This document shows, in pieces, positions 51,484-60,789 of a DNA stretch of 64,000 nucleotides. This DNA comes from Natrialba magadii ATCC 43099 (GTDB taxonomy: Archaea; Halobacteriota; Halobacteria; Halobacteriales; Natrialbaceae): NCBI RefSeq assembly GCF_000025625.1, contig NC_013922.1:3596001-3660000 (forward strand). The letters are read 5' to 3'. The notes below the pieces were generated by a model that searched no databases, had not been told where the DNA came from, and saw only the letters and a list, made by a program, of their open reading frames with translations. The position numbers and the translations under genes are program-made. Within the stretch, counting starts at the first letter, position 1, and the number at the start of each line of letters is the position of its first letter.

Positions 51484-51786
51484 ATGCCAACCGTCTACAT
51501 CACCGCCCCACCAGACGCAGCCGACTCGCTCGCCGAAACCCTCGTCGACAAGCGACTCGCCGCCTGCGTCAACCGGCTCTCGACCACCTCGACGTACCGC
51601 TGGGACGGCGAGATTCACCACGATGATGAGGCCGTCCTGCTCGCGAAGACGACCGACGACGCCTACGACGACCTCGTCGACTGCGTCAAGCGGGAACACC
51701 CCTACGATGTCCCCTGTATCGAACGGTTCGACGAAGCCGACGTACTCGAGTCCTTCGCGGAGTGGCGTGCGGAGAGCGTCGAGTAG
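51484..51786 (+). CDS. cutA: Divalent cation tolerance protein CutA
   Basis: 100 residues, the normal length. TVYITAPPDAADSLAETLVDKRLAACV is the family opening, given here by the key words YITAPPDAADS and RLAACV; the later segment RWDGEIHHDDEAVLLAKT carries the trimer interface and the usual Cys/His region. CutA trimers bind copper and other divalent metals; the true role is not settled. Confidence 0.93.
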   Translation: MPTVYITAPPDAADSLAETLVDKRLAACVNRLSTTSTYRWDGEIHHDDEAVLLAKTTDDAYDDLVDCVKREHPYDVPCIERFDEADVLESFAEWRAESVE

Positions 51787-51911
51787 TGGCTGCTCGAGCA
51801 CGGTAGCACGGCGACGACAGCTGACCCCGCCCGCCACAGTACGTCAGTGCGTCACAGACGCCACTACGCGAAAAAGCAACCCTTAAAACTCGCGCACGGG
51901 TTGTGACGGGT

Positions 51912-52385
51912 ATGGCTGGAACCATCGAAGTGCTCGTTCCGGGTGGCCAGGCCAACCCTGGCCCACCGCTCGGTCCCGAGCTCGGACCGACCCCCGTCGA
52001 CGTGCAGGCGGTCGTACAGCAGATCAACGATCAGACGGAAGCCTTCGACGGCACGGAAGTGCCCGTCACCGTCGACTACGACGACGACGGCTCGTTCGAG
52101 ATCGACGTCGGTGTCCCACCGACGGCGGCACTCGTCAAGGACGAGGCTGGCTTCGAGACCGGCAGCGGCGAGCCCCAGGAGGACTTCGTCGCTGACCTCT
52201 CGGTCGAACAGGTCAAGACCATTGCAGAGCAGAAACACCCTGACCTGCTCGCCTACGATACGAAGAACGCCGCGAAGGAAGTCGTCGGCACCTGCGCCTC
52301 GATGGGCGTTACCATCGAAGGTGACGATGCCCGCGAGTTCAAGGCGAAGGTCGACGACGGCGAGTACGACGACGTACTCGCGTAA
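51912..52385 (+). CDS. rpl11: Ribosomal protein L11
   Basis: 157 residues from the ATG at 51912, ~22-31 nt after the TATA ccttaaaact. N-terminal domain (MAGTIEVLVPGGQANPGPPL) and C-terminal RNA-binding domain (VEQVKTIAEQKHPDLL, VVGTCASMGVTIEG) are complete. In most haloarchaea rpl11 is next to rpl1; here a ~6-kb opposite-strand gene cluster separates them. Leaderless, while the L1 operon downstream is leadered. Confidence 0.97.
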   Translation: MAGTIEVLVPGGQANPGPPLGPELGPTPVDVQAVVQQINDQTEAFDGTEVPVTVDYDDDGSFEIDVGVPPTAALVKDEAGFETGSGEPQEDFVADLSVEQVKTIAEQKHPDLLAYDTKNAAKEVVGTCASMGVTIEGDDAREFKAKVDDGEYDDVLA

Positions 52386-52615: not shown

Positions 52616-53731
52616 TTACGACTGGCCACTCACCGTCGGCCCACAACGAGCGAGCACGTCCAGATTGTGCGCGACGAATCCAAACATCCCGGACTCGAGT
52701 GCCGTTCGTCGTTGATCGTGCCACTGTTCCTGTTCGGCGGTCGAAAACGGTGTCATCACAGCGGGGACAGCCGTGAGGGCGTCGTCGATCGTGTGCAGAA
52801 TGTGTTCGAGGACGAGTTGTTCGGATGCTGGGTAGTGGGTAGTGTGGCTTCCGGGGCTTCCGGGGCTGCCGGCCTCGTCGGCCCCACTGTGATCGCCACA
52901 TGCTGGGCGGACGACCCAGTTTGACCCACCGGTAGCGAGCGTCTCCCAGTCCCGGCGGCGCAGTGTCGTCAGTAGTTCGCGACCCGCGCGGCTGCTGCCG
53001 CCGTCCCGAATCTCGTCCATGTGGTGGTGATAGCAGCGCTCTATGTCGCGGTCGAGCGGATCTGTTGGGACGAAGCCAGTCCCGCCATCGAAAGTAATCG
53101 GCGCGTAGAGCACTCCGCCCGGTTCGAGTAGCGTCTCGATGGACTCGAGTGCAGCCGGCACGTCGATGAGATCCAGAAAGGCAGCTGCGATGACGGCGTC
53201 GGCCTGTGCCTCGATTTCGAACGCGTCGGCGGTGGTGAAGGTGATGGTGAGAGTGGTGGGGGTGGTGGTGGCGCTGGCGCTGGCAGTGGCGCTAGTGGTC
53301 GCAGTAGCCGGAACGGCGTCGGTGTACTCGAGTGGCCCCGGCGTCTCGTCTCGCTCACGACAATTGCCCCCAGTGAATTCACCAGTTGAGTCACGCGTTG
53401 CCACGAGCGTAGCGGACTCGGCGGCCCGATCGTCACGCCAGCGGACAGTGTACCCCGCGTTCTCGAGTTCGTCGGGAACGAGGTCGCGTGCGCGAGTAAT
53501 GCTCTCCGCGTCGCGGTCGACGAGCCGATAGCTGACGCGTTCGGGAAGACAACCCCACGTCGCGAGTCTGACGAGCATCGTCCCAACGCCGGCACCGAGT
53601 TCGACGACGCTGACCGGGCCGTTGCGGGCTGTGAGCGCGGCCACGAACTGGTCGAGCACGCGCCGATTCAGTGCACGGTCGTCGACAGTTCGCTTTGCTT
53701 CCAGATAGGCTTGCATAGACGGACCGGTCAC
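52616..53731 (-). CDS. SAM-dependent methyltransferase with low-complexity inserts
   Basis: 371 residues. SAM motif I VVELGAGVGTMLVRL (42-56) and following acidic strand (YRLVDRDAESITRAR) are standard class I methyltransferase signatures. Two inserts interrupt the Rossmann-like sequence: a Thr/Ala/Ser run at ~145-165, encoded by hexamers, and a Gly/Ser/His-rich stretch near 285-300. It overlaps the glycosyltransferase stop by 4 nt (53728-53731) and is the last gene of the pterin-type cluster. A methyl group transfer onto a glycan, lipid or pterin is possible. Confidence 0.87.
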   Translation of the reverse strand: MTGPSMQAYLEAKRTVDDRALNRRVLDQFVAALTARNGPVSVVELGAGVGTMLVRLATWGCLPERVSYRLVDRDAESITRARDLVPDELENAGYTVRWRDDRAAESATLVATRDSTGEFTGGNCRERDETPGPLEYTDAVPATATTSATASASATTTPTTLTITFTTADAFEIEAQADAVIAAAFLDLIDVPAALESIETLLEPGGVLYAPITFDGGTGFVPTDPLDRDIERCYHHHMDEIRDGGSSRAGRELLTTLRRRDWETLATGGSNWVVRPACGDHSGADEAGSPGSPGSHTTHYPASEQLVLEHILHTIDDALTAVPAVMTPFSTAEQEQWHDQRRTALESGMFGFVAHNLDVLARCGPTVSGQS

Positions 53732-54837
53732 GGCTGCTCACCACCCGCAGATGGGGACGACTCGTCGCCGTCCGGGTCCGAAATCTCGAGGAGAAACGCT
53801 CGCAGTTTCTCGAACGTTGTCTCCCACGATGGATGCGCGTCGGCTGTCCGGAGCGCAGCCGTCGCGAGCGATGCCAGCCGCTCGCGGTCGTGTGCGAGGT
53901 CAGAGACGATGGTTGCGATCCGCTCGGTGTCCTCCGGATCGACGACGAACCCGTTGGTGCCATCACTGACGAACTCGCTCGCACCCCCAACACTGCTCGC
54001 GATCGGGACGACACCAGCCTCCATCGCTTCCAGATACACCATCCCGAAGCTCTCGTAGCGGGATGGAACCACGAGCACGTGCGAGCACGCGAGGATGGAC
54101 TCGAGTACGTCGTCCGTGACAGGGCCGGAGAACGAGACGCGGTCGGCGAGCCCTGTTGTGGTTCGTTGGTCACGGATTTGACGGGTGTAGTCGGGTTTGG
54201 CCGCATCGTCGCCGACAATAGTCAGCGTCCAGTCGACTGTGCGGTCGATGTGCGAGAGGGCGTCGAGAAGTGTCTCGACGTTCTTGCGCGGAATGACGTT
54301 CCCGACGAAGACGAGTCGAAGCGATCCCGTTCTGGCTCGCTGGACGACATCGTCGGGTGACGGTGGCGGTGTCGGTTGCCGGCCGGCCGGCGGCGCGACG
54401 TGCGTCGGGAGGTCGGTGGTGACGATAGTAGACACCTGCTCGCGCGTGAACTCGCTGGTGCAGACCGCTGCGTCGACCGACTCGAGATAGCGTCGGTCGC
54501 GTTTGCGCTCGTGGTCGTGATCGCGTTTGCGCTCGTGGTTGCGCTCGTGCTTCTGGTCGGCGGAACTCCTGAAGGCAGGGTGTTTGAGAAGGTGCACCAG
54601 CGCGACGATCGCCCCGGGTTTCTCGAGTGCGGCGTTGCGATCGACGAGCGTCGGAGAGCAGAGTTCGTCCTGCAAGAGCACGTCGAATGGCTGATTCAGA
54701 GTTGGCTCCCCATCGGAGAGCGAGCAGACAGTGACGTCGTCGCCACGGGACTCGAGAGAGGAGACGAGTTTGCGATCGTACCGGTAGCCGCCAGAACACT
54801 GGTCGAGGTCGCCGGGAACGACGAGGCCAATGTTCAT
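53728..54837 (-). CDS. GT4-family glycosyltransferase
   Basis: 369 residues. The GT-B C-terminal signature PSRYESFGMVYLEAMEAGVVPIA contains the retaining-GT4 E-x7-E pair; a nucleotide-sugar loop (VFVGNVIPRKNVETLL) precedes it at ~180-195. A basic-acidic repeat insert (NHERKRDHDHERKRDRR, key words) of the type HER-KRD interrupts the N-terminal domain near residue 95 and is slippage-prone. Cytoplasmic. It is three nt before the PTPS gene and its end overlaps the methyltransferase start, so the three are coupled. Confidence 0.9.
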   Translation of the reverse strand: MNIGLVVPGDLDQCSGGYRYDRKLVSSLESRGDDVTVCSLSDGEPTLNQPFDVLLQDELCSPTLVDRNAALEKPGAIVALVHLLKHPAFRSSADQKHERNHERKRDHDHERKRDRRYLESVDAAVCTSEFTREQVSTIVTTDLPTHVAPPAGRQPTPPPSPDDVVQRARTGSLRLVFVGNVIPRKNVETLLDALSHIDRTVDWTLTIVGDDAAKPDYTRQIRDQRTTTGLADRVSFSGPVTDDVLESILACSHVLVVPSRYESFGMVYLEAMEAGVVPIASSVGGASEFVSDGTNGFVVDPEDTERIATIVSDLAHDRERLASLATAALRTADAHPSWETTFEKLRAFLLEISDPDGDESSPSAGGEQP

Positions 54838-54840
54838 CGG

Positions 54841-55221
54841 TCAGAGCGTCCGCTCGTGTGCAACACGTGCCACGTCATCTTCCTGAATCTCGACTCTGAG
54901 TTCGGTAACTGGGTCCGGAAGCGAGAGGGACTCGAGTAGTCGGTCACCGAAGACACGGGCGAATCGTTCGACGCTTGGGTTTGCGCCCTCGAACGCGGGG
55001 AGATCGTTGAGTACCCGGTCGCTGTAGAACGCAGCGGTGCGGTCCATCGCGGCGACGAGGTCGTCGATGTCGACGAGGTACTCGTGTGCGTCGAGTTCGG
55101 AACCCCGAAGCGTTGCCTCGATGGTGAAGTTGTGAGAGTGCAGTTCGCCCTCCGGACCGGGGTCCGGCACCGTCAGAGCGTGCTGGGCGATCACCGACCG
55201 GGAGACCGAGACGGCGTACAT
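54841..55221 (-). CDS. 6-pyruvoyltetrahydropterin/6-carboxytetrahydropterin synthase homologue
   Basis: 126 residues from the ATG at 55221 (MYAVSVSRSVIAQHALTVPD). The fold's three zinc histidines are seen: AQHAL (His14) and the HSH of GELHSHNFTIEAT (about His29 and His31). The Cys that acts as base in QueD and eukaryotic PTPS before the H-x-H is not present; the loop is shortened to PGPEGEL. Terminal VEIQEDDVARVAHE keeps the Glu that holds the pterin ring. A dihydroneopterin-triphosphate-like substrate is likely, but the reaction may differ. Confidence 0.88.
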   Translation of the reverse strand: MYAVSVSRSVIAQHALTVPDPGPEGELHSHNFTIEATLRGSELDAHEYLVDIDDLVAAMDRTAAFYSDRVLNDLPAFEGANPSVERFARVFGDRLLESLSLPDPVTELRVEIQEDDVARVAHERTL

Positions 55222-55379
55222 GCGAGAGCCTATCACGAACGGTGATAAATTTCCTCGCCCGAGTTGCACGCGACTGGACGCAGTAGGAGCAGTGAGCAGT
55301 GGAACTGGAGAAACGGGATGGTGGCAGGGGTAGTGTGAGTCGGGCTGGAGTAGGTGTAGAGGTGGTCGTAGGAGTCGGG

Positions 55380-56417
55380 CTACTCGTAGGTAAACAACAC
55401 CTGCACAACACCGTCGGCACGCTCCTCGAGTAACTCGTAGGCTGTGCCCGCGTCCTCGAGTGGGAACTCGTGCGTAAACAGCCGCTCGAGGTCGAGTCGG
55501 CGGAGCCAGGACCAGGTGAGTTCGTGACGGCGCTCGCGCGACCAGCGCCCGGAGAGGCGAGGGTCGATGGTGCTCACCTGGGTGCTTCGGATGTCGATCC
55601 GGTCGCGGTGAAATCGACCGCCGAGATTCGCCGTGGCCGGTTTGTCCCCGTACCAGGAACCGACGAGAAGGCGGCCGTCGAACCCCGTTACGGCGAGCGC
55701 GTCGTCGAGCGCGTTGGGGTTCCCGGAGAGTTCGTAGGAGAGGTCCGCACGCGGGGATTCATCCCCGGTGCCGGCAACGGTAGCGGCGTCCGCGAACGCC
55801 TCCTCGACCGCACATGCCGTCGGATCGAACGTGTGATCCGCACCGAAGGCGTCGGCGTGCTGACGGCGGTCACCGTCGGGATCGAACGTCACCAGCGTCT
55901 CGATCGGTGTCCGGGCGAGCAACGCCGTCGTCAACAGCCCGACGACACCCTGCCCAAAGACGGCAACGTGCTCGCCGACCAACGGCTCGCCGTCGAGCAG
56001 GAAGGTGACGGCCGTCTCGAGATTAGCGAAGAGGGCAGCCTCGCGCGGGGTAACCTCCTCCGGAACCGGGAGCAGGTCGTCCGGCGTCGCGAGAAAGTGG
56101 CTCTCGTGGGCGTTGTACGCGAAGACCGCCCGCCCGAGCCAGTCGTCGTCAACCTCGCTCCCGACCGCGTCCACCTCACCGACCGCCGCGTAGCCGTAGG
56201 TGAGCGGGAAAGAGAGGTCGCCCTCGAGTGCATCGAGTTCGCTATCGGCGGGGAGGTCGGCGGGTGCCTCGCCGCGGTAGATCAGGCCTTCGGTGCCGGC
56301 GCTGACGGCCGAGACACGCGTTCGAACGCGTACGTCTGTCGGACCGGGGTCTGGGATCGGCCGAGAGCAAACCTCCACGGTCCGCGGGCCGGTGAACGAG
56401 AGGGTGCGGGCGGTCAC
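55380..56417 (-). CDS. MDR-family dehydrogenase, no catalytic zinc
   Basis: 345 residues. GroES-like N-terminal domain (RVRTRVSAVSAGTEGLIYRGEAP; key words AVSAGTEG) and Rossmann domain VAVFGQGVVGLLTTALLA (~144-161). The SAGTE start of the second strand is that of the zinc-independent branch seen in BchC-like and other biosynthetic dehydrogenases, and the catalytic Cys is absent. It likely reduces or oxidises a pathway intermediate. The stop lies 158 nt from the PTPS start, in the same direction. Confidence 0.9.
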   Translation of the reverse strand: MTARTLSFTGPRTVEVCSRPIPDPGPTDVRVRTRVSAVSAGTEGLIYRGEAPADLPADSELDALEGDLSFPLTYGYAAVGEVDAVGSEVDDDWLGRAVFAYNAHESHFLATPDDLLPVPEEVTPREAALFANLETAVTFLLDGEPLVGEHVAVFGQGVVGLLTTALLARTPIETLVTFDPDGDRRQHADAFGADHTFDPTACAVEEAFADAATVAGTGDESPRADLSYELSGNPNALDDALAVTGFDGRLLVGSWYGDKPATANLGGRFHRDRIDIRSTQVSTIDPRLSGRWSRERRHELTWSWLRRLDLERLFTHEFPLEDAGTAYELLEERADGVVQVLFTYE

Positions 56418-56578
56418 ACTGTACGGGGGTTCTACGGGACCCCACTTGGGAGTTTGTACGGAAGGAGGTGCCTACCATGGGTCAGGTCGCACGTCAGTGA
56501 CGTGGGGATGGGGCGGAGATGGGGATAAAAATAGAGATAGAGATGGAAATGGTGTGTCTGTACTCGAGTACGGACCTA

Positions 56579-57403
56579 CTACGTTGACTCGAGACGACCG
56601 GAGGCGACGAGCCAGTCACGGGCGAAATTCGCGAGAAACGGCACCGCGACGAGGAGCGCGAACGGACGAGAGAGCGCGGGGTCGACGAGCGGTACGAGTG
56701 CGACGAAAATCGCAACCATCGCGAGCGCTCCCAGTACGCGCCGACGGAGACTCGGCGACAACTCGGCGGTAGGGAGTCCGCGACGGTCGCGCCACCAGAG
56801 GCTGGCGACGAAGACGTACCGCGCGACCGCGACCGCGAGAAAGACAAGCGGGAGCACCCCGGTGAGCACACCGACGGTTGTGCCGACGAGGACGACGAGG
56901 CCGTCCATCTCGAGATCGAGGCGTGCGCCGAGGTCGGTGACGCTGTCAGTCCGTCTGGCGAGCCAGCCGTCGACGGCGTCGAGGAGGGCTGCGACGGCGA
57001 ATAGAACCGCCGGTGCCCACCTGAGGCTGGCGCTGGCGTCGGCACCGGTGACTGTCGCCGAGGCGGGAAACTCGAATCCGCCCGTAGCCGCGGCTGCGAG
57101 TCCCGCGAATCCACCGAGTCCGGCGACTGCTGCACCGCGTGCCACGGTCACCCACGTCGCGGATGTAAACGGCGGCGCTGTCACCGCAGCGTGCCGGTCA
57201 ACGACATAATAGATTATTGTGGATGTGAGCGAGAAGACGAGGAACGCCCCCGCGAGAAACGCAACCGGAACAAATCCCGACCACAGTGGCACGAACGCGA
57301 TGACGAGCAGGCTGCTCAGTGCGCCAAGTCCGAGCGTCGCGCGACCCCACTGGGTGTATGGGCGGAGTGGACTCGAGTACTCCGGGCGATGATCGTCAGT
57401 CAC
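56579..57403 (-). CDS. CDP-alcohol phosphatidyltransferase
   Basis: 274 residues with about six spans. The full signature DGxxAR-x8-G-x3-D-x3-D is present as DAVDGWLARRTDSVTDLG with ARLDLEMDG following (about residues 126-150). It transfers a phospholipid group from CDP-archaeol to an alcohol such as serine, glycerol-P, inositol or, as speculation, a pathway product of this cluster. Its start overlaps the stop of the 118-residue membrane gene by 8 nt. Confidence 0.93.
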   Translation of the reverse strand: MTDDHRPEYSSPLRPYTQWGRATLGLGALSSLLVIAFVPLWSGFVPVAFLAGAFLVFSLTSTIIYYVVDRHAAVTAPPFTSATWVTVARGAAVAGLGGFAGLAAAATGGFEFPASATVTGADASASLRWAPAVLFAVAALLDAVDGWLARRTDSVTDLGARLDLEMDGLVVLVGTTVGVLTGVLPLVFLAVAVARYVFVASLWWRDRRGLPTAELSPSLRRRVLGALAMVAIFVALVPLVDPALSRPFALLVAVPFLANFARDWLVASGRLEST

Positions 57404-57752
57404 GGCGAGCGAGGAGGATGAGAAGGAGTGCGATCAACAGGGTCTGTGCGATTTTGTCGACGGTTTCGGCTGCTGAGAGATCGGCGAGTGCAGTGGGTTC
57501 GTTGACGATGTACCAGAGGACGATCTGTCCGGCGGTGAACGGAATTCCCAGGAGGTAGACGAGTCGTCGCCGATAGTTCCGGATGACGAGCGCGATACCG
57601 AGGAGAAAACCGGCGGTCGCGGCGAGGAACGCGACGCCCATCCAGTGTGGGAGAAACGAAACGCCAAGGATGAGGTGGACGAGCGCGCTGACGGCTGCGA
57701 GGGCGATAGCTAGCCAGTGGACTGGCGAGAGGGAACTGGCAGAGCGAGCCAC
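57396..57752 (-). CDS. Four-span membrane protein in the pterin-type cluster
   Basis: 118 residues with about four hydrophobic spans (HWLAIALAAVSALVHLILG, HWMGVAFLAATAGFLLG, and two more). No family recognised. It overlaps the CDP-alcohol gene by 8 nt, so it is probably the first gene of the operon reading from 57752. It may help anchor or export the product. Confidence 0.85.
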   Translation of the reverse strand: MARSASSLSPVHWLAIALAAVSALVHLILGVSFLPHWMGVAFLAATAGFLLGIALVIRNYRRRLVYLLGIPFTAGQIVLWYIVNEPTALADLSAAETVDKIAQTLLIALLLILLARRD

Positions 57753-57888: not shown

Positions 57889-58494
57889 TCAAATCTTGTT
57901 CGCAGGCGGAACCGTGCGCTCGTCCGGCGCTGTCGTGGAGCCAGCGTGCAACAGCACGCGGACGAACGCGCCAATCCCGAGCGACGCAGCCAGTGAGACG
58001 ACCAGTACGGTGAGTGGGAGCGAAACCCCCACGAGGCCACAGAGAAGGCTGCCTGCCAGGATTCCAGAGCCGAGCCCGTCACGACCGAGTCGTGCTGCGA
58101 GCGCGCGTCCGACGGCGACGAATCCGAGCGCGACGAGTGGGAAGAGAACCGTTGTGCCGATCATAACGAGCGGCAGACCGAAGAACGTCCCGACGCCGCG
58201 TCCGATCAGCACGTAGCCCGTGCTCGTCAACCCGCTGACGATCAAGAGCCCCGGGAACCCGATACAGATCGAAATGATCGGGCTCCGCCGTGCGGTCGTC
58301 ACCGTGCGTGAGCCGTGACCCTGAAGCAACCCAAGGACGACGAGGCCGAGCAGTAACGTCACCCCGAACTGCACGCCGACGCGTCCGAGCGGTTCGAGTG
58401 CGTGGTAGGCTTCGAGCGCCCCGCTCGCGGCGAGGCTCTCGAGTACCTCGTACCCGGTGGCGCCGTTTCCAGTATATAATTCTGCTGGCCGCAT
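57889..58494 (-). CDS. Membrane protein, unknown function
   Basis: 201 residues with about five spans and a short acidic C-terminus (TTAPDERTVPPANKI). It lies at the upstream edge of the same-direction cluster, 137 nt before the 118-residue gene, and is divergent from rpl1. A GT-rich 57753-57888 stretch separates it from the next gene. I do not recognise a family. Confidence 0.8.
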   Translation of the reverse strand: MRPAELYTGNGATGYEVLESLAASGALEAYHALEPLGRVGVQFGVTLLLGLVVLGLLQGHGSRTVTTARRSPIISICIGFPGLLIVSGLTSTGYVLIGRGVGTFFGLPLVMIGTTVLFPLVALGFVAVGRALAARLGRDGLGSGILAGSLLCGLVGVSLPLTVLVVSLAASLGIGAFVRVLLHAGSTTAPDERTVPPANKI

Positions 58495-58751: not shown

Positions 58752-59384
58752 ATGGCAGATTCGGATATCGAAACCGCAGTGGCTCGCGCACTCGAGGACG
58801 CACCCGATCGGAACTTCACCGAGACGGTCGACCTTGCGATTAACTTGCGCGACCTTGACCTGAACGAACCGTCGAATCGTGTTGACGAGTCCGTCGTCCT
58901 CCCGTCCGGCACCGGACAGGAGACGCGCATCGTCGTCATTGCCGAAGGAGAGACTGGAGTCCGCGCCGAAGAGGCAGCGGATGAGGTCCTTTCGGTTGAC
59001 GATGTCGCAGATCTGGACGATGACGACGCCAAAGATATGGCGGACGAGACGGACTTCTTCATCGCCGAAGAGGCGATGATGCAAGATATCGCCCGGCACC
59101 TGGGTACCATTCTCGGTCCCCGCGGGAAAATGCCGGACCCGCTCGCGCCCGACGACGACGTCGTCGAGACCGTCAACAGACTCAAGAATACCGTGCAGCT
59201 TCGCTCCGGCGACCGACGAACGTTCCACACGCTCGTCGGCTCCGAAGAGATGGACGCCGAAGATGTCGCCGACAACATCGACGTCATCCTGCGACGCCTG
59301 CACGCTGACCTCGAGAAGGGCCCCCAGAACATCGACGCCGTCTTCGTAAAGACGACGATGGGCCCATCCGTGGAGGTGGCCTAA
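58752..59384 (+). CDS. rpl1: Ribosomal protein L1
   Basis: 210 residues. [20 protein letters not shown] opens the archaeal L1; [24 protein letters not shown] (key words RGKMPDP) is the conserved central loop. It binds 23S rRNA in the L1 stalk and, by analogy with Halobacterium, its own mRNA leader. First gene of the rpl1-rpl10-rpl12 operon; separated from rpl11 by the opposite-strand cluster. Confidence 0.97.
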
Positions 59385-59385
59385 G

Positions 59386-60423
59386 ATGAGCGCACAGGCA
59401 GACCGCAAGACCGAGAACCTTCCACAGTGGAAGCAAGAGGAAGTCGACGAGCTCAAAGCACTCATCGAGAGCTACGAGAGCGTCGGCATCGTCGGCATCG
59501 CCGGCATTCCCTCGAAGCAGCTGCAGGACATGCGGCGTGACCTGCACGGCACCGCCGAACTGCGTGTCAGCCGCAACACACTGCAGGTTCGTGCGCTCGA
59601 GTCCGCTGGCCTCGACGATCTCGTCGAAGAGATCGAAGGCCAGGTCGGCCTGATCGGCACGAACGACAACCCGTTCGCACTCTACAAGGAGCTCGAGGCC
59701 TCGAAGACGCCCGCCCCGATCAACGAGGGCGAGGTCGCCCCGAACGACATCGTCATCCCCGAGGGTGACACTGGTGTCGATCCAGGGCCGTTCGTCGGCG
59801 AACTCCAGAGTATCGGCGCGAACGCACGCATCGAGGACGGTTCGATCCAGGTTATGGAGGACTCGACGGTCCTTTCGGCCGGCGAAGAAGTCTCTGCGGA
59901 CCTGGCGAACGTGCTCAACGAACTCGGCATCGAGCCCAAGGAAGTCGGGCTCGACCTTCGCGCAGTCGTCGCCGAGGGTGTGCTCTTCGACCCAGAGGAC
60001 CTCGATATCGACATCGAGGCCTACGAGAGCGACGTGCAGACGGCCGCCGCTCGCGCTCGGAACCTCTCGCTCAACGCACCGTTCCCGACCGCGACGACGG
60101 CACCGACGCTCATCGCCAAGGCCACGGGCGAGGCCAAGAGCCTCGGCCTGCAGGCCGCCATCGAGGACGAAGAACTCATGCCCGACCTCGTCTCCAAGGC
60201 CGACGCACAGCTGCGTGCGCTCGCGGCTCAGATCGACGACGAGGAAGCCCTGCCCGAGGAACTGCAGGGTGTCGAGGCGCCCGCTGCTGAGGCGGCCGCC
60301 GACGAGGGCGAAGACGAATCGGAAGCCGACCAGGACACAGAGTCCGACGCTGACGACGACACCGACGACGATGACGAAGACGACGGTGACGGCGCAGAAG
60401 GACTCGGCGCAATGTTCGGCTAA
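59386..60423 (+). CDS. rpl10: Ribosomal protein L10 (P0)
   Basis: 345 residues, starting 1 nt after the rpl1 stop, with the ribosome-binding site ggaggtgg at 59371-59378 inside rpl1. RNA-binding domain ([21 protein letters not shown]; key words [15 protein letters not shown]) followed by the L12-binding helices and a C-terminal acidic tail ending EGLGAMFG, shared with L12. Stalk base protein that carries L12 dimers for translation-factor GTPases. Confidence 0.97.
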
Positions 60424-60447
60424 CTAACACTACTGGAGGATACAACA

Positions 60448-60789
60448 ATGGAATACGTTTACGCTGCACTCATCCTGAACGAATCGGACGAAGAGATCAA
60501 CGAAGACAACCTCACCGACGTGCTCGACGCCGCTGGCGTCGACGTCGAGGAGTCCCGTGTCAAGGCGCTCGTCGCCGCACTCGAGGACGTCGACATCGAC
60601 GAGGCCGTCTCCGAGGCCGCAGCCGTCCCAGCCGCCGGAGCCGCCGCAGGCGGCGCTGCCGCAGCTGACGAGGCTGCTGACGACGGTGGCGACGAGGAAG
60701 AGACCAGCGACGTTCCGGACACGACGGACGAGGACGACGACGAGGACGACGAGGCAGACGGCGAAGGCCTCGGCGAACTCTTCGGCTAA
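60448..60789 (+). CDS. rpl12: Ribosomal protein L12 (P1/P2)
   Basis: 113 residues. N-terminal dimerisation domain ([20 protein letters not shown]), Ala-rich hinge ([15 protein letters not shown]) and acidic tail EGLGELFG that contacts elongation factors. A ribosome-binding site (ggagga at 60432-60437) lies 10 nt before the ATG. Last gene of the ribosomal operon. Confidence 0.97.

Follow-up and report, generated by a model that had tools for sequence, protein, structure and literature searches.

A six-gene set of Natrialba magadii ATCC 43099, read in one direction within the 64,000-nucleotide stretch of NC_013922.1 that was analysed here (the window), encodes a PTPS-fold protein, a GT4-family glycosyltransferase, a methyltransferase, an MDR-family dehydrogenase, a CDP-alcohol phosphotransferase and a DUF7475 membrane protein (Table 1). 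These six genes are one functional unit, and they probably represent a horizontally spread, cross-domain cassette for a glycosylated, methylated and usually phospholipid-anchored pterin or pyrimidine that derives from a pyrimidine made from GTP. Linkage, co-occurrence, cross-domain homology and the retention or loss of active-site motifs were observed directly, and from them we infer each chemical step, the order of the steps and the product.

The genes co-occur strictly. Among 194 genomes of Halobacteria, a PTPS homologue was found in 114 and an orthologue of the dehydrogenase (E<=1e-40) in 112, all of them within those 114 (Fisher p 4.5e-53, a value that, like the p-value below, overstates independence because the sampled genomes are related, presence nevertheless being patchy even within genera). 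No genome carried the dehydrogenase without the PTPS gene, and only G071 and G076 showed the reverse. In a 97-genome subset, the methyltransferase was present in 58, the CDP-alcohol phosphotransferase in 55 and the glycosyltransferase in 46 of the 59 PTPS-bearing genomes, as against none of the 38 others; DUF7475 was found in 55 of the 59 and in four of the 38, the latter four being weak matches. The CDP-alcohol phosphotransferase and DUF7475 were absent together, in the same four genomes. In some genomes, such as G065, G053 and G074, the parts are split over loci or contigs, yet the full set is kept. Joint conservation of the genes, which the first-pass annotation had proposed to check across haloarchaea, is borne out. 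A chance neighbourhood is ruled out by the strict co-occurrence and by the gene order conserved in archaea and bacteria.

For the haloarchaeal neighbourhoods, linkage was counted by a hidden Markov model (HMM) scan within 7.5 kb of the PTPS gene in two sets of 80 loci that share species. Set 1 was taken from the 116 PTPS places of the 194-genome search, many of the remaining places belonging to genera already sampled, and set 2 from named genomes; some loci end at contig ends. In 3 of 81 loci the PTPS gene escaped open reading frame calling, hence the use of the HMM scan for the counts. In sets 1 and 2, respectively, the dehydrogenase was linked in 71 and 67 loci, the methyltransferase in 63 and 56, the glycosyltransferase in 62 and 65, the CDP-alcohol phosphotransferase in 51 and 38, DUF7475 in 50 and 34, and a fusion of GFO/IDH with aldo-keto reductase in 15 and 18. 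ArfA, which catalyses the opening step of riboflavin synthesis in archaea, was linked in 26 and 28 loci, where simple arithmetic gives a chance expectation of about 0.3 of 80 loci for an ArfA gene that near. It is a GTP cyclohydrolase III (PF05165, 1e-84), and its deletion in Haloferax volcanii resulted in riboflavin auxotrophy according to PMC8305020. The ArfA gene lies upstream of the dehydrogenase in some lineages and downstream of the methyltransferase in others; several Haloferax species show the order arfA-dehydrogenase-PTPS-glycosyltransferase. The ArfA tree requires at least four changes of the linked state. One divergent group of 11 rows is linked throughout and looks like a dedicated second ArfA. 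Two ArfA copies occur in 24 of the 194 genomes, 20 of which carry the PTPS gene, as compared with 94 of the 170 others (p 0.013), and in seven two-copy genomes the coordinates put one of the copies no more than about 2.5 kb away from PTPS. In G008, G009 and G015, ArfA is found about 112-115 nt upstream of the glycosyltransferase orthologue, away from the PTPS gene. ArfA itself was found in 189 of the 194 haloarchaea, with no match in genomes G043, G078, G088, G139 and G144.

The cassette extends to bacteria and to other archaea. A search of plasmids with SCO6650 gave 23 records, 20 of them bacterial, and 14 of these 20 bacterial neighbourhoods were examined. The order dehydrogenase-PTPS-glycosyltransferase-methyltransferase recurs in actinobacterial and proteobacterial plasmids: the dehydrogenase gene lies directly beside the PTPS-IV gene in 11 of the 14 loci, usually with the GT4 and methyltransferase genes next, and nine of these 11 loci carry RibA, a GTP cyclohydrolase II, and/or RibD. 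Over all 14 loci, a CDP-alcohol phosphotransferase was counted in six, RibA in five, a RibD-family protein in eight (with the RibD_C domain alone in both proteins checked), creatininase in one, and an adjoining cytochrome b in four, one of which was confirmed as b561 type. When the window dehydrogenase was searched against plasmids at 1e-30, six bacterial records were matched, all six among the PTPS records of the SCO6650 search; the haloarchaeal HMMs score the bacterial dehydrogenases at 210-232 bits and the bacterial methyltransferases at 60-94 bits. Two loci of archaea outside Halobacteria (L211, L212) have RibA in place of ArfA, and a creatininase-family gene is present in the cassettes of Streptomyces (L193), Haloarcula (L199) and L212. 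The co-occurrence with GTP cyclohydrolases that the first-pass annotation had thought worth seeking was therefore found, as ArfA in haloarchaea and as RibA in bacteria and in the two archaea from outside Halobacteria, and not as GTP cyclohydrolase I. Among other neighbours, an MdoH-type membrane glucosyltransferase adjoins the bacterial cassette in L195 and L220, and the Rhizobiaceae cassettes are accompanied by LPG_synthase_TM and a protein annotated as a sulfatase.

The PTPS-fold protein retains the three zinc-binding histidines of PTPS (H13, H27 and H29, invariant in a 34-row alignment) and also Glu113, taken as the pterin anchor, and in its family glutamate occupies the position of the catalytic cysteine. 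The motif ExxxH[SAD]H was recognized in 74 of the 78 called members, the others having Asn at the second His (three, none of them in that alignment) or Asp for Glu (one), and catalytic Cys was absent at its position in all 78. The protein fails the ExxHGH signature of PTPS-III, its Glu standing at -4 and not -3, and the PTPS-I (QueD) signature CxxxHGH with catalytic Cys was found in 0 of 78 members; both assignments were rejected. Lacking the catalytic Cys, it does not belong to any known type of pyruvoyl- or carboxy-tetrahydropterin synthase, and that part of the first-pass annotation is given up. In a fold search with its predicted structure (pLDDT 97.5), Streptomyces coelicolor SCO6650 came out closest (3d7j; E 1.7e-12, TM 0.90), followed by QueD, and the sequence search likewise gave 3d7j as the closest solved structure (1.4e-16); SCO6650 is reportedly without zinc and without the triad. 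In a 65-row tree, which came from a short search and has some long branches, 35 rows (17 haloarchaeal, 13 bacterial, five from other archaea) split off on one branch (SH-aLRT 94), and 28 other, Cys-bearing PTPS proteins stand apart (support 92). FGPAQ or FGSAQ occurs in all 13 bacterial rows; the window protein has PGPEG, and L213-L215 are intermediate with FGPET. PMC5445326 describes PTPS-IV by the FGPAQ signature, with PF00925 and PF01872 among the neighbours. Since the window protein fails this signature, it is a sister of PTPS-IV and not a member. PMC5041015 labels PTPS-IV 'F420, unpublished' and PTPS-V unclear.

PTPS-IV, as represented in COG0720 by SCO6650, is among the closest known systems: it offers the nearest solved structure by sequence and fold, and it shares a common clade and the lack of catalytic Cys. 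RibA and RibD neighbours, as given for PTPS-IV in PMC5445326, are likewise found in the bacterial cassettes and RibA in L211 and L212, whereas haloarchaea have ArfA instead and the window has neither. The window protein differs further in its PGPEGxxHSH sequence with three zinc-type His, where the bacterial proteins have FGPAQ and HGA at the third His. In the open-access literature searched, no account was found of the whole cassette, its product, the ArfA linkage or the haloarchaeal distribution, which is no proof of absence.

Pfam E-values for the window proteins are 9e-20 (PTPS), 2.9e-34 (Glycos_transf_1), 9.9e-9 (ADH_zinc_N), 2.8e-12 (CDP-OH_P_transf) and 5.5e-9 (DUF7475); support for the methyltransferase is weaker, with one of five methyltransferase models above its cut-off. 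Its subfamily shares an N-terminal motif in 57 of 62 archaeal and 10 of 10 bacterial proteins, and its profile gave generic class I matches only against the PDB. In the glycosyltransferase, the EX7E residues E262 and E270 are the same in all 20 aligned rows, although a stricter pattern that also fixes neighbouring residues matches no more than 21 of 53 and 0 of 8. Its profile matches the solved tetrahydrobiopterin glucosyltransferases (1.6e-18 and 3.5e-16) and more strongly MshA, PimB and sucrose-phosphate synthase, so that the acceptor is not readable from the profile. A different GT4 gene adjoins cassettes that do not have the usual one (L053, L064, L068, L069, L075, L084, L085, L111), as if the sugar varied between cassettes. 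Of the dehydrogenases, 66 of 68 haloarchaeal and all 10 bacterial proteins carry SxGTE with YGY, and three and none, respectively, have the string GHE; a zinc-dependent alcohol dehydrogenase was rejected for want of the usual catalytic Cys and GHE zinc ligands. Each of the 50 haloarchaeal and six bacterial CDP-alcohol phosphotransferases checked has the whole DxxDGxxAR-G-D-D motif. PgsA, PssA and CPT1 share this full catalytic motif, but the window enzyme falls below every equivalog cut-off (best pgsA, 34.9 against 109.1 bits) and its distribution is tied to the PTPS gene. A fold search for a cytochrome-like relative of DUF7475 gave no PDB match at E<=0.001.

Most likely, the pathway is entered by a pyrimidine of the riboflavin type that derives from GTP. 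ArfA and RibA turn GTP into FAPy-phosphate or the deformylated compound, and the recurrence of two unrelated cyclohydrolases with the same kind of product in one gene set points most strongly to the starting compound. GTP would thus be converted by ArfA in haloarchaea, or by RibA in bacteria and the two other archaea, to FAPy-phosphate or the deformylated 2-amino-4-oxopyrimidine, with deformylation in some loci by a creatininase-family (ArfB-like) enzyme and, in bacteria, reduction by a RibD_C-type reductase. The Cys-less PTPS fold may bind the ring and then rearrange or cyclise the pyrimidine, the zinc-less dehydrogenase would perform a redox step, and the GT4 enzyme and the methyltransferase would add a sugar and a methyl group. 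Where present, the CDP-alcohol phosphotransferase would join the product to a phospholipid through a phosphodiester, with CDP-archaeol as donor in archaea and CDP-diacylglycerol in bacteria. The RibD_C protein could also reduce a pterin ring, so that the product may be a bicyclic pterin, a pyrimidine that carries a ribityl group, or a flavin-like compound. A more specific and rather speculative idea is that the product is a membrane-anchored redox cofactor common to haloarchaea and bacteria, namely a glycosylated, methylated GTP-derived pterin or flavin-like ring on a phospholipid, that could pass electrons to and from membrane proteins, for instance the neighbouring bacterial cytochrome b; the known pterin and deazaflavin cofactors are, to our knowledge, soluble or protein-bound.

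Several observations weigh against this pathway. ArfA is linked in only about one third of the haloarchaeal loci; the window has none, and the single ArfA of the genome lies elsewhere. RibD was not seen in the haloarchaeal loci scanned (sets 1 and 2), and creatininase was rare there (2 of 80 and 1 of 80 loci). In three of the 14 bacterial loci, all from Streptomyces (L218, L219, L224), the cassette is missing around the PTPS gene, and L216 and L217 have a PTPS relative without the dehydrogenase. Thirteen of the 59 PTPS genomes are without this glycosyltransferase at E<=1e-35, some loci having another GT4 nearby. CDP-alcohol enzymes are able to make soluble products too, and in G004, G033 and G091 the CDP-alcohol phosphotransferase and DUF7475 are missing with the remaining cassette genes present, so that a lipid anchor must be dispensable in these genomes. 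The sugar, methyl and lipid-headgroup steps on a GTP-derived ring that the first-pass annotation had envisaged are still the best-fitting reading, except that the lipid step is absent in these three genomes.

Other products may be considered. It is possible, but not likely, that the cassette makes a soluble glycosylated tetrahydropterin of the biopterin-glycoside or halopterin type, in which the PTPS protein would form the side chain, the dehydrogenase would act like sepiapterin reductase, the GT4 enzyme and methyltransferase would add sugar and methyl, and the CDP-alcohol enzyme would serve a side branch. Synthesis of tetrahydrobiopterin glycosides also unites a PTPS fold, an oxidoreductase and a GT4 enzyme, the activities parallel PTPS, sepiapterin reductase and pterin glucosyltransferase, the glycosyltransferase profile matches the tetrahydrobiopterin enzymes, and the CDP-alcohol enzyme is missing in some genomes. 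The cassette is moreover present in Haloarcula marismortui, from which a sulfated pterin has reportedly been described. However, the cassette contains no GTP cyclohydrolase I and no catalytic Cys in its PTPS protein, and it has an extra methyltransferase and a CDP-alcohol enzyme, the latter in 55 of 59 genomes; the linked cyclohydrolases are of types II and III, leading to pyrimidines and not to dihydroneopterin, and MshA, PimB and sucrose-phosphate synthase fit the glycosyltransferase better. No link of the cassette to phosphohalopterin or sulfohalopterin was found in the open-access literature searched, where the sole mention of 'halopterin' was a synthetic compound. A polar-lipid or cell-surface glycan pathway, with a PTPS fold that has lost its pterin link and works on sugar, is improbable: the GT4 and CDP-alcohol enzymes, the GFO/IDH-aldo-keto reductase fusion and the LPG_synthase_TM and annotated sulfatase of Rhizobiaceae would suit it, but Glu113, the presumed anchor, is invariant, and linkage to two unrelated GTP cyclohydrolases has arisen repeatedly and independently.

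There is only a slight chance that the cassette branches off from, or regulates, the synthesis of riboflavin or F420. The linkage to ArfA, RibA and RibD, the label given to PTPS-IV in PMC5041015 and a PPOX-class F420-dependent oxidoreductase that one Streptomyces locus carries about 6 kb away from PTPS are in its favour, and the archaeal riboflavin pathway (ArfA, ArfB, ArfC) resembles the cassette in ArfA, sometimes creatininase, and the RibD_C reductase of bacterial loci. Nevertheless, no deaminase, lumazine synthase or riboflavin synthase was noted in the cassettes examined, and cofD is found in 193 and ArfA in 189 of the 194 haloarchaea but the PTPS gene in only 114, so that neither pathway needs it; a core role in F420 or riboflavin synthesis was rejected on this distribution. 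The database annotation, archaeosine or queuosine precursor synthesis by QueD, is almost certainly wrong. The window protein shares family-level similarity with QueD, including the T-fold, the three His and the anchor Glu, but it has Glu for Cys, scores 39 bits against the 89-bit cut-off of TIGR03367 and has no Que genes nearby, and the 4.44-Mb genome encodes a separate QueD of the usual CxxxHGH form, the next protein (280 aa) appearing to be QueE. On the separate QueD and the missing Cys, this annotation was rejected.

In the window, all six genes are encoded by the minus strand, with overlaps of 4 nt (methyltransferase and glycosyltransferase) and 8 nt (CDP-alcohol phosphotransferase and DUF7475) and a 3-nt gap between the glycosyltransferase and PTPS genes, as originally described. 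The two remaining gaps are about 160 nt each, so that the set may or may not form a single transcript. The PTPS gene starts with ATG, and an alternative GTG start is possible upstream at 55269. The nearest PTPS homologues among named genomes are from Natrialba species (86-90% identity). The cassette is flanked by rpl11 (L11) and rpl1-rpl10-rpl12 (L1, L10, L12) in the opposite reading direction (window 51484-52385 and 58752-60789); in other families its site differs from the rpl11/rpl1 interval. It is doubtful that the upstream 201-aa membrane protein belongs to the pathway. In some other haloarchaea (L067, L074, L109, L199 and others), a 294-aa protein without a Pfam match lies upstream of the dehydrogenase and by eye seems to resemble the alkaline phosphatase/sulfatase superfamily. 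Genome G037 holds two cassette copies (C1 at about 178-185 kb and at 1.68 Mb), the PTPS gene of the first apparently split into two frames, and in Haloarcula marismortui NC_006395.1 (L199, 9000-9400) the PTPS-like gene is frameshifted and unannotated in an otherwise complete cassette.

Table 1. Genes of the cassette and the adjacent upstream gene, in window coordinates
Feature	Coordinates	Strand	Characteristics
S-adenosylmethionine-dependent methyltransferase, class I, cassette-specific subfamily	52616..53731	minus	N-terminal YLxAKRxVDDRAL / WLxLRExxD motif
GT4-family glycosyltransferase	53728..54837	minus	both EX7E Glu invariant in 20/20 aligned rows
PTPS-fold protein	54841..55221	minus	ExxxHSH: three zinc-type His kept, Glu for catalytic Cys; sister to bacterial PTPS-IV
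MDR-family NAD(P)-type dehydrogenase	55380..56417	minus	SxGTE and YGY; usual catalytic zinc ligands missing
CDP-alcohol phosphotransferase	56579..57403	minus	complete DxxDGxxAR...GxxxDxxxD motif
DUF7475, predicted four-helix membrane protein	57396..57752	minus	distribution like that of the CDP-alcohol phosphotransferase
201-aa membrane protein, upstream, same direction	57889..58494	minus	conserved in about 10 loci, most of them L11-L1 sites

The structure of a PTPS-IV protein has been solved since 2008, and members of the family are routinely annotated as 6-carboxytetrahydropterin synthase. The placement of PTPS-IV in this cassette would correct many such database annotations, and the strict cross-domain gene set with its likely entry from GTP makes an old family of unknown function, PTPS-IV with its haloarchaeal sisters, genetically testable. 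If the product is indeed lipid-linked, it would represent a new class of membrane pteridine.

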